From Candidatus Omnitrophota bacterium (lineage in GTDB: Bacteria > Omnitrophota > Gorgyraeia > Gygaellales > Profunditerraquicolaceae), in assembly GCA_030693145.1 (NCBI GenBank), contig JAUYBI010000054.1, positions 1-33,663 of the forward strand: a DNA stretch of 33,663 nt, in the 5' to 3' direction. Positions 2,628-33,533 of this stretch are shown piece by piece; positions within the stretch are counted from its first letter, which is position 1, and every line of letters begins with the position of its first letter. A model generated the notes under the pieces. That model saw only the letters and a list, made by a program, of their open reading frames with translations. It searched no databases and was not told the DNA's origin. The translations under genes were made by a program, and so were the position numbers.

Positions 2628-3158
2628 ATGAAAAAAATCGGTCAATTAGTTAAGGAAACCTCAGAGAGCCGTATCAAGGACAGCTTTAAAGCATCTTTAG
2701 GCTTAATTATCGTAAAATACTCCGGAGTATCCAGCCCCGATATGAGCGCTTTAAGAAAGACGCTCAAAGGCTCTGACGCTGATCTTTTTGTAGTTAAAAA
2801 TAGCATTGCCCGAAGGGCAATGAAGGAGTTGGGCCTGGAGAACTTAATTCCGTCTATCCAGTCGCCTTGCGGGATGATCTTTTTTAAGGATGAACCGGTG
2901 GATATCTCCAGGATATTATGCGCTTTCCGTAAAGAACATGAAAAACTGATATTAGAGGGTGGATTATTACAGGATAAACTATTAACTTTAAAAGATATTG
3001 AATTGATGAGCAAATTGCCTTCTAAGGATGCGCTGAGGGGCAAGCTGGTGGTGGTATTAAATGCTCCGATTTTAAAGTTAGTTTTTGTTTTGAATCAATC
3101 TTTGAAAAAGTTCGTGTATTGTTTAGATCAAATCAAGCAGAAAAAGTCAGTTAACTAA
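2628..3158 (+). CDS. rplJ: Large ribosomal subunit protein uL10
   Basis: This 176-residue protein is the base of the L12 stalk. The N-terminal domain binds 23S rRNA ([22 protein letters not shown], then [15 protein letters not shown]), and the C-terminal helix carries the L12 dimers. It starts 1 nt after rplA, so the autoregulatory L10 leader known upstream of rplJ in enterobacteria has no room here. Instead a 116-nt gap filled with repeats separates it from rplL, which could allow separate control of L12. Confidence 0.96.
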
Positions 3159-3198
3159 TAAAGACACCCGGTGCTAATTGGAATTGCGCCGGTGTTGT
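3157..3198 (+). repeat. Hairpin repeat family A, copy 1 (upstream of rplL)
   Basis: These 42 nt match 11637-11678 (upstream of rpsG) at 37 of 42 positions. The core folds as CACCCGGTGC with GCGCCGGTG, a 9-bp stem with one bulged C and a G-U pair. It begins within the rplJ stop codon. There is no U-tract, so it does not look like a terminator. Both known copies precede a ribosomal protein gene. Confidence 0.65.
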
Positions 3199-3204
3199 AA
3201 TCGC

Positions 3205-3269
3205 TCCCCCTCGCAGGGGCTCGGGGTCATTTTTCCCCTGGCGCCGGAGGCTGGGGAAAAATGAGGAGG
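3205..3269 (+). repeat. Palindromic repeat family C, copy 1; supplies the rplL Shine-Dalgarno
   Basis: A 65-nt element almost identical to those at 28189-28251 and 33463-33527. Its centre is a perfect 12-bp stem, TCATTTTTCCCC (3227-3238) with GGGGAAAAATGA (3253-3264), around a 14-nt GC-rich loop. GGAGG follows at once (3265-3269), 5 nt before the rplL ATG. The Shine-Dalgarno is therefore part of the repeat and sits just outside the hairpin. Confidence 0.75.
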
Positions 3270-3274
3270 AAGAA

Positions 3275-3661
3275 ATGGCAACTGAAAAATTGGAAGATTT
3301 AATTAAATCTATCGAGACGATGAGCGTGATGGAACTCGCCGATCTAGTTAAAGCTTTGGAAGAGAAGTTTGGGGTTAGTGCGAATATGCCGATGATGGCT
3401 GCTCCTGGTGCTGCCGGTGGTGCTGCTGCGCCTGCCGCGGTTGAAGAGAAAAGCGCCTTTACGGTAATGTTGGTTAGTTGCGGCGCAAATAAAATCGCGG
3501 TGATTAAAGAAGTGCGTACAATTACTAATTTAGGTTTGAAAGAAGCCAAAGATTTAGTGGATGCTGCTCCTAAAGCGATTAAAGAAGGCGTAAGTAAAGA
3601 CGAAGCTGCGGAAATAAAAAAGAAATTAGAAGCAGCGGGCGCAACCGTAGAATTGAAATAA
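3275..3661 (+). CDS. rplL: Large ribosomal subunit protein bL12 (L7/L12)
   Basis: The 128-residue acidic protein has an N-terminal dimerisation helix region (about 1-34), an alanine- and glycine-rich hinge (about 40-55), and a C-terminal factor-binding domain with [13 protein letters not shown] and the helix [15 protein letters not shown]. It recruits EF-G, EF-Tu and IF2 to the ribosome and is present in several copies, so it must be made in excess over L10. The ATG follows a strong GGAGG that belongs to a family C repeat. This is one plausible way to raise its expression relative to rplJ. Confidence 0.97.
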
Positions 3662-11534: not shown

Positions 11535-11540
11535 TAAAGA

Positions 11541-11624
11541 TGACCCGTTCGATGGTTCAACTTCGTTCACCATCGACACTGAGCAGGGTCGAAGTGTCGA
11601 CTTCGCTCAGGGTCATCCTGAGCA
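11541..11624 (+). repeat. Palindromic repeat family B, copy 1 (upstream of rpsG)
   Basis: An 84-nt block identical at 83 of 84 positions to 20163-20246. It contains nested inverted repeats: TGACCC with GGGTCA at the outside, GATGGT with ACCATC, and CGACACT with AGTGTCG. It ends TCATCCTGAGCA. The cassette GGAGTGTCGAAGGATGA, probably the right end of the same element, appears at 11691-11707 and includes the rpsG start codon. A family A repeat lies between the two parts. Confidence 0.75.
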
Positions 11625-11636
11625 AGCGACGAATTA

Positions 11637-11678
11637 AATAAAGGCACCCGGCGCTAAGCAGAATTGCGCCGGTGTTGT
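11637..11678 (+). repeat. Hairpin repeat family A, copy 2 (inside the rpsL-rpsG gap)
   Basis: This is the second copy of the 42-nt element found at 3157-3198, with five differences. CGGCGC (11649-11654) pairs perfectly with GCGCCG (11666-11671), and CAC with GTG extends the stem past one bulged C. It lies between the two halves of repeat B, which suggests insertion of one element into another. Confidence 0.65.
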
Positions 11679-11690
11679 GTCTATACACAA

Positions 11691-11707
11691 GGAGTGTCGA
11701 AGGATGA
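11691..11707 (+). promoter_or_regulatory. Repeat-derived translation start of rpsG
   Basis: GGAGTGTCGAAGGATGA holds the Shine-Dalgarno (GGAG, AAGGAG with the two bases before), a 9-nt spacer and the ATG at 11704. The identical 17 nt start rpmC at 20264-20280. AGGATGA is complementary to TCATCCT at 11613-11619, so a 7-bp stem could hide the start codon. The start is also supported by the S7-like N-terminus it gives. Confidence 0.7.
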
Positions 11708-20160: not shown

Positions 20161-20162
20161 TA

Positions 20163-20246
20163 TGACCCGTTCGATGGTTCAACTTCGTTCACCATCGACA
20201 CTGAGCAGAGTCGAAGTGTCGACTTCGCTCAGGGTCATCCTGAGCA
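20163..20246 (+). repeat. Palindromic repeat family B, copy 2 (upstream of rpmC)
   Basis: This copy matches 11541-11624 at 83 of 84 positions (one G to A change). It starts 3 nt after the rplP stop. Only 17 nt separate it from the 17-nt start cassette at 20264-20280. The whole element, 20163-20280, is therefore about 118 nt here, against 167 nt at rpsG where a family A repeat lies inside. Confidence 0.75.
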
Positions 20247-20263
20247 GGTAATGGATTTAACAG

Positions 20264-20280
20264 GGAGTGTCGAAGGATGA
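20264..20280 (+). promoter_or_regulatory. Repeat-derived translation start of rpmC
   Basis: GGAGTGTCGAAGGATGA is identical to the rpsG start cassette at 11691-11707. It includes a GGAG Shine-Dalgarno, a 9-nt spacer and the ATG at 20277. AGGATGA (20274-20280) can pair with TCATCCT at 20235-20241, closing a stem around a 32-nt loop that would cover the start codon. Confidence 0.7.
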
Positions 20281-28168: not shown

Positions 28169-28188
28169 GATATCGGTGTTAGTTCGCT

Positions 28189-28251
28189 TCCCCTCGCGGG
28201 AGCTCGGGGTCATTTTTCCCCAAGCGCCGGAGGCTGGGGAAAAATGAGGAG
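28189..28251 (+). repeat. Palindromic repeat family C, copy 2; supplies the rpsK Shine-Dalgarno
   Basis: A near-identical copy of 3205-3269. The perfect stem is TCATTTTTCCCC (28210-28221) with GGGGAAAAATGA (28236-28247), and GGAG follows (28248-28251), 12 nt before the rpsK ATG. That spacing is longer than at the other two copies. The preceding CGGTGTT (28174-28180) also occurs before copy 1, so the element may extend about 15 nt further left. Confidence 0.75.
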
Positions 28252-28263
28252 ATATAAAATAAA

Positions 28264-32207: not shown

Positions 32208-33461
32208 ATGCCAAAGACAATAGCCGAGAAAATTTTAAGTAAACACGCTGGTAAAGATTTAGCTGCGGGTGATTTTGCCATTTGTAAAATAGATTTTGCT
32301 TTTGGCCAGGATGGCACTTCATCAATAATCATTGACCAGATTAAGGAACTAGGAGTAACAAAAATAAAGGCCGCATTTTGTATGGTTATTGACCATAGTG
32401 CCCCCAGTCCCAGTGAAGGGGTATCCCGGGTGCATCAGAAGATGCGCGATTTTTCGAAAAATTTTAAAACAGAAATTTTTGATATTGGCTGCGGAGTTTG
32501 TCATCAGGTAATTCCGGAATCCGGCAGGATTCTGCCGGGAGATTTAGTTTTAGGCGCGGATTCCCATACCTGTACTTACGGGGCAATTGGCGCATTTTCT
32601 ACCGGTGTTGGTTCTACGGATTTAGCTATTGCTCTGGCTACCGGAAGAAATTGGTTTAAGGTGCCCGCGACTATAAAAATTGTCGTTAAAGGCAAGCTGT
32701 CCAGCGGCGTTTTTGCCAAGGATATTATCCTGTATATAATCGGTAAACTAAAAAGCGATGGGGCAACCTATAAAGCTGTTGAGTTTTCCGGGCCGGTGAT
32801 TGATAGTTTAGGAATGGACGGCCGCTTTACCATAGCGAATATGTTAGTGGAAATGGGCGCTAAAGCCGGTTTTATGCCGGTGGATAAAAAAACTGTTTCC
32901 TGGTTAAAACTTAAGGGCGTTAAGCGCGAGAGGATTAAAAATATCTCTGCAGATAAAGGGGCTCTTTATGAGAGCGTTTATGAATTTGATATTTCTAAGC
33001 TTAAGCCGATGATTTCTATGCCACATAGTGTAGATAATGTTGCCCAGGCCTCTTCTTTAAATAAGGTTAAAATTAGCGAAGCTTTTTTGGGTACCTGTAC
33101 TAACGGCCGTATTGATGATTTTAAGGCGGCGGCAAAAGTTTTAAATAAACGCAAAATTAGCCCTGAGGTTAAGTTGATTATTGCCCCCAGTTCGCGGCAG
33201 GTTTATCTGGAGGCTTTGCGGCTGGGCCTGGTTGAAATATTTATTAAAGCGGGCGCAGTTATTGTTGGGCCCGGTTGCGGCCCTTGCGTGGGCACGCACA
33301 ATGGTATTCCTAGTGACGGCGAAGCCGTGATCTCAACTGCCAATCGTAATTTTAAAGGTAGAATGGGCAATCCCGCGGCGTTTATTTATTTAGCTTCTCC
33401 GGCAACAGTGGCGGCTTCGGCAATTAAGGGTTACATTAGCGATCCCAGAGGTTATTTCTAG
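32208..33461 (+). CDS. leuC: 3-isopropylmalate dehydratase large subunit (LeuC, aconitase family)
   Basis: The 417-residue protein matches the shorter, archaeal-type LeuC/HacA class. The [4Fe-4S] ligands are C297 in GTCTNGR and C357 and C360 in GPGCGPCVGTHNG; GADSHTCTYGAIGAFSTGVG near residues 119-138 is the substrate-side motif. The expected reaction is isomerisation of 2- to 3-isopropylmalate, with a separate small subunit. No leuD follows here, because pilT comes next, so the partner must be encoded elsewhere. Homoaconitase or another aconitase-family activity cannot be excluded. Confidence 0.85.
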   Translation: MPKTIAEKILSKHAGKDLAAGDFAICKIDFAFGQDGTSSIIIDQIKELGVTKIKAAFCMVIDHSAPSPSEGVSRVHQKMRDFSKNFKTEIFDIGCGVCHQVIPESGRILPGDLVLGADSHTCTYGAIGAFSTGVGSTDLAIALATGRNWFKVPATIKIVVKGKLSSGVFAKDIILYIIGKLKSDGATYKAVEFSGPVIDSLGMDGRFTIANMLVEMGAKAGFMPVDKKTVSWLKLKGVKRERIKNISADKGALYESVYEFDISKLKPMISMPHSVDNVAQASSLNKVKISEAFLGTCTNGRIDDFKAAAKVLNKRKISPEVKLIIAPSSRQVYLEALRLGLVEIFIKAGAVIVGPGCGPCVGTHNGIPSDGEAVISTANRNFKGRMGNPAAFIYLASPATVAASAIKGYISDPRGYF

Positions 33462-33462
33462 T

Positions 33463-33527
33463 TCCCCCTCGCGGGTGCTCGGGGTCATTTTTCCCCAAGC
33501 GCCGGAGGCTGGGGAAAAATGAGGAGG
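33463..33527 (+). repeat. Palindromic repeat family C, copy 3; supplies the pilT Shine-Dalgarno
   Basis: This copy starts 1 nt after the leuC stop codon. The perfect stem is TCATTTTTCCCC (33485-33496) with GGGGAAAAATGA (33511-33522), and GGAGG (33523-33527) lies 6 nt before the next ATG. Its presence ahead of a non-ribosomal gene shows that the family is not specific to ribosomal protein genes. Confidence 0.75.
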
Positions 33528-33533
33528 TGTTTT

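Follow-up and report, generated by a model that had tools for sequence, protein, structure and literature searches.

The window analysed here, the whole 33,663-nt stretch of contig JAUYBI010000054.1 from a Candidatus Omnitrophota bacterium (GCA_030693145.1), is contig 46 of a 1.81 Mb genome and contains the gene pairs rplP-rpmC and rpsL-rpsG. A 102-nt repeat lies upstream of both rpmC and rpsG, is 92% identical between the two sites, and embraces a pairing between TCATCCT and AGGATGA, the second of which includes the start codon. A preliminary description had drawn attention to this pairing, and its account of the letters at rpmC, of the identical pair before rpsG, and of a family A hairpin within the rpsG loop is borne out by the features below, in which X is a terminal sequence, X′ its reverse complement, and H1 and H2 the two hairpins. 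A lone 7-mer match is weak evidence, and the weight comes from the surrounding 102-nt repeat.

20162–20280, forward strand: complete X-H1-X′-H2-X element at rpmC, including both ATGA copies, with an empty site in many same-genus genomes
20162–20165, forward strand: left X = ATGA (putative duplicated target), 1 nt past the rplP TAA stop
20175–20222, forward strand: nested 48-nt general element, X = TCGA, missing from the orthologous element of genome G006
20235–20238, forward strand: X′ = TCAT, reverse complement of the putative duplicated target, within TCATCCT 20235–20241
20262–20267, forward strand: AGGGAG, Shine-Dalgarno-like, in the hairpin-2 loop at rpmC
20274–20280, forward strand: right arm AGGATGA at rpmC, with ATG 20277–20279 the rpmC (L29) start codon
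11540–11707, forward strand: complete element at rpsG, including both ATGA copies, with an empty site in G006
11540–11543, forward strand: left X = ATGA at rpsG, 5 nt past the rpsL TAG stop
11553–11600, forward strand: nested 48-nt element, X = TCGA, matching that in the rpmC copy
11613–11616, forward strand: X′ = TCAT at rpsG, within TCATCCT 11613–11619
11637–11678, forward strand: family A hairpin repeat inside the rpsG hairpin-2 loop, also at 3157–3198
11689–11694, forward strand: Shine-Dalgarno AAGGAG in the hairpin-2 loop at rpsG
11701–11707, forward strand: right arm AGGATGA at rpsG, with ATG 11704–11706 the rpsG (S7) start codon
15895–15969, forward strand: third, decayed general element, X = TCAA/TTAA, between two genes of the ribosomal-protein region

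The decayed copy carries an additional palindromic repeat within its hairpin 1. A separate palindromic repeat, TCATTTTTCCCC..GGGGAAAAATGAGGAG, occurs at 3201–3275, 28184–28258, and 33459–33533 of the window, and all three copies end in GGAG(G) a few bases upstream of an ORF start.

Further copies of the repeat are present elsewhere in the source genome, where GTCGAAGGATGA has five exact matches compared to none for the reversed control. Aligned in register, the copies follow the general plan X-N3-[TTCGACnnnGCTCA]-N3'-X'-M3-[TGAGCnnnGTCGAA]-M3'-X, in which the cores [TTCGACnnnGCTCA] and [TGAGCnnnGTCGAA] are mutually inverted copies, a 4-nt X stands at either end, and X′ lies between both hairpins. 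X itself varies across general-element copies (ATGA, TCAA, TTGA, TTAA, TAAT, TTGG, TCGG, CATAG, and TCGA), and the left X nevertheless equals the right X in 27 of 42 distinct copies (mean 5 and maximum 13 in 2000 shuffles), while 18 of the 42 have perfect pairing in both 7-nt arms, compared to a maximum of two in 2000 shuffles. Among the 27 canonical copies, the inner three base pairs of hairpin 1 are never identical to those of hairpin 2, and X reads YYRR in all but one; X = ATGA departs from this pattern. When a single genome was scanned for each species, copies of the 48-nt form were recovered from Omnitrophota, Cyanobacteria, Planctomycetes, Patescibacteria, and others; matches in Chloroflexales MAGs represent a single fixed, different repeat and were excluded from these counts. 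Copies of the 48-nt form (34/48) and random positions (753/960) fall within open frames of 150 codons or more at similar rates, so a 48-nt insertion preserves the reading frame. Tandem arrays of two or three 48-nt units were also observed inside coding genes (L324, L325, L039, L101, and L110; genomes G000 and G006). Each of the pairings before rpmC and rpsG thus very probably represents the right-hand hairpin of one copy of a double-hairpin element that is mobile and dispersed in Candidatus Omnitrophota. Copies with X = ATGA make up a subfamily, distinguished by a longer second loop in which a Shine-Dalgarno sequence is found.

Empty and filled versions of the same sites could be compared at several genes. 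Between rplP and rpmC, many same-genus genomes read cataaaTAAT-ATGAAA, and the filled site of the window reads cataaaTAAT-ATGA-CCC...AAGG-ATGAAG. G006, whose S7 is 99% identical, has an empty rpsL-rpsG site (GGGAAATAGTAAAG-ATGAGAAG, or in short form TAGTAAAG-ATGAGAAG), as well as empty sites at gcvPB (GCAGTCTT-ATGAAA, where the vacant site is a TTATGA stop/start overlap) and gyrB (AAGTTTC-ATGAAG). At rpmC, G006 and G023 carry a simple 67-nt version of the element; the gap is 116 nt in the window and 68 nt in G006, 67 of 67 positions align outside the 48-nt insert, and the extra 48 nt of the window copy are a general element inserted at TCGA. Since the rpsG copy shares this inner insert with the rpmC copy, the composite has travelled as a unit. 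These comparisons indicate insertion accompanied by an ATGA duplication, and the sequences would fit equally well a duplicated target or an element that itself ends in ATGA and needs ATGA at its target. In other species, an unrelated hairpin repeat, CCCGCACCTTC..GAAGGTGCGGG, is found at the start codons of rpmC (L203, L208, L217, and L226) and gcvPB (L364), where it likewise follows ATGA and has AAGGTG ahead of the start; remnants of it were seen at L219, L220, and L225.

The left part alone (GGGTCATCCTGAGC), used as a query, had matches in 43 of 384 Omnitrophota genomes. We collected 46 complete ATGA copies from up to 384 Omnitrophota genomes, variants included, together with same-genus genomes, and in 45 of them a frame of 60 codons or more begins at the right ATG; the sole copy off a start has a short 3-nt loop without a Shine-Dalgarno sequence and a 9-codon frame. 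As background, start codons account for 15 of the 254 ATGA occurrences in the window. The downstream genes are unrelated and number in the dozens (gyrB, trpS, rplM, nusG, dapF, gcvPB, ruvA, atpH, and others). All 20 downstream proteins checked against family libraries matched known families, with the match to a named family beginning within the first six residues in at least 11 of the 20. At the other end, the left ATGA contains the TGA stop of the upstream gene in 18 of the 36 copies for which an upstream gene was identified, and overlaps the stop by one base in three more of the 36. The ATGA copies thus sit at start codons, and with a TGA stop held in the left ATGA of these 18 copies, the element has split a stop/start overlap while both codons are retained. 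The ATGA cassette with exact arms was not found in viral contigs. In the gyrB genes of G006, G009, and G013 (L345–L347 and L353–L355) we observed an intein-like, in-frame interruption of roughly 400 codons after residue 444.

In nearly all ATGA copies, the hairpin-2 loop contains an AGGAG-like sequence ending 3–10 nt upstream of the ATG, and 41 of 45 copies match AGGAGG at four or more of six positions. The loop sequence probably serves as the working initiation signal. Most orthologous copies have also been constrained after insertion, differing less than the four-fold degenerate sites with which they were compared. The rplM element shows no differences over 69 positions between G000 and G006 (four-fold sites 11/56), and between G000 and G023 the differences amount to 4/67 in the rpmC element (four-fold sites 7/17) and 11/104 in the gyrB element (29/88). 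The gyrB element is not clearly slower between G000 and G014 (9/93 compared to 20/122 at four-fold sites), and the trpS copies of G000 and G210 (6/69 compared to 51/76) could be independent insertions.

By the most probable mechanism, the ATGA subfamily inserts at start codons that are followed by A, often within ATGA stop/start overlaps. The left ATGA then retains the TGA stop of the upstream gene and the right ATGA the downstream ATG, while the loop would provide a new ribosome-binding site 3–10 nt ahead of the ATG, replacing the original one displaced upstream. Movement may take place through the hairpins as single-stranded DNA, and X′ may aid target choice by base pairing with the target. 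In its most far-reaching form, with an element that carries its own initiation region, actively homes to start codons with a preference for ATGA overlaps, duplicates four bases so that both genes are kept alive, and has an X′ that pairs with the target or is copied from it, we regard this proposal as tentative, and possible rather than probable.

A variant of the mobile-element explanation dispenses with homing: copies would land at random at any ATGA and last where they are costless or helpful, for instance at starts that use the loop Shine-Dalgarno sequence. The conservation of most orthologous copies beyond four-fold sites indicates selection once in place, and Shine-Dalgarno-bearing loops are common to several copies. 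An insertion at an intergenic ATGA away from a start should, however, be harmless under this account, yet only one of the 46 complete copies is found off a start. We consider random landing followed by selection a plausible account that falls somewhat short of an even chance. Regarding the machinery behind the mobile element, Y1 transposases are present in all 27 same-genus genomes, and copy number correlates weakly with Y1 gene number (rho 0.39, p 0.04). The core hairpin flanked none of the 17 Y1_Tnp loci examined in G000, G006, and G014, although a single core hairpin was located roughly 2.6 kb away from one of these loci; with core hairpins not flanking these genes and the correlation weak, a RAYT was rejected as the mobiliser.

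The preliminary description had proposed that the RNA stem could hide the AUG and control initiation at both genes, rpmC and rpsG, either through coupling to translation of the upstream gene or through binding of S7. As a conserved structure with covarying arms the stem stands, since the fifth arm position across ATGA copies comprises 35 C-G, 6 G-C, 2 A-T, and 1 T-A pairs and a single T-G wobble, and the outermost pair has changed once. With the recurrence of the element and all four Watson-Crick pairs at this position, the pairing goes far beyond chance, and the covariation of the arms indicates that the hairpin has been preserved, at the level of either DNA or RNA. An in-place change is seen in the orthologous gyrB copies, from G-C in G000 and G023 to A-T in G014, and predicted folding at rpmC favours the start-codon stem (P 0.59); both points, like the occurrence of all four pair types, would suit a masked AUG. 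The predicted folds nonetheless do not support masking as the prevailing state. Across 30 copies, the TCAT:ATGA stem has a mean probability of 0.13, staying at or below 0.06 in 24 of them and exceeding 0.2 in only six, and at rpsG it is 0.00, with competing hairpins winning, an outcome that the preliminary description itself had named as refuting its proposal. The left arm TCATCCT doubles as part of a rival stem, ATGACCC:GGGTCAT, and its CCT also takes part in a third, GCTCAGG:CCTGAGC, which forms a rival fold in short copies. The presence of the same element on dozens of unrelated genes and its absence from rpsG in the sister genome G006 further argue against gene-specific control by S7, and an Rfam search of the window returned one tRNA only and no ribosomal leader. 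Regulation by S7 is thus unlikely, and S7/L29 autoregulation as the main reading is rejected on account of the unrelated host genes together with the absent rpsG fold; masking of the AUG as a general explanation we consider improbable. That the element is not mobile at all, with similar initiation hairpins having evolved in many genes or arisen as assembly artefacts, is scarcely credible given the exact empty sites, the nested 48-nt insert with an empty site of its own, and the shared rare loop sequences, since the empty/filled pairs refute it unless the assemblies are wrong.

The mobile double-hairpin element has partial counterparts among known systems. REPINs are short, dispersed, inverted hairpin pairs that lack a gene of their own and show compensatory stem changes (PMC3116915), and the mobile unit of REP/BIME/REPIN systems with RAYT (TnpA_REP) is likewise built of two inverted imperfect hairpins. 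The present element differs in lacking the GTAG/CGTC tag, its consensus ending instead in X = ATGA, TCAA, TTAA, and so on; in having direct-repeat ends with a central X′; in residing on start codons or in-frame within genes; and in a core that does not lie beside the RAYT-like genes examined. The 48-nt general form, which adds 16 codons net, is often found in-frame within coding genes, a likeness by position to Rickettsia palindromic elements and other in-frame palindromic inserts. The Rickettsia elements measure about 150 nt (PMC10969869), and the ATGA subfamily is not intragenic but occupies start codons and includes a ribosome-binding site. A possible likeness to IS200/IS605 elements such as IS608, which transpose as single strands, is that X′ complements X and so could, by analogy, act as a guide; here, however, a hairpin stands on either side of the guide-like X′, and its complementarity is complete. 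Target duplication is not known for IS608. That element pairs its tetranucleotide target with a guide adjacent to a hairpin and selects it in this way (PMC5934647). MITEs (ERIC, Correia, BOX, and RUP) are similarly small, palindromic, and non-autonomous, with target duplication and effects on host mRNA, and dispersed copies, target duplication, and empty sites are found here as well; the present element differs in its exact location on start codons and in the Shine-Dalgarno sequence of its loop, and no parent transposon or autonomous version came to light among the copies examined. PARCEL repeats, a 25-residue tandem protein motif (PMC2996958), were set aside as being of a different kind. Searches of the open literature, with subscription journals outside their scope, returned only unrelated papers for the core sequences and no match for such elements at start codons.

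The element points to a route by which selfish DNA could inhabit operons without harm, reusing the four bases with which genes end and start and bringing along a ribosome-binding site. The rule X..X′..X, holding for many different X, opens two ideas to direct testing, namely that targets are chosen by base pairing or that the target is copied into the element. The element would also imply that a transposable part can replace the initiation regions of essential genes, among them those for S7, L29, and L13 as well as gyrB and trpS.
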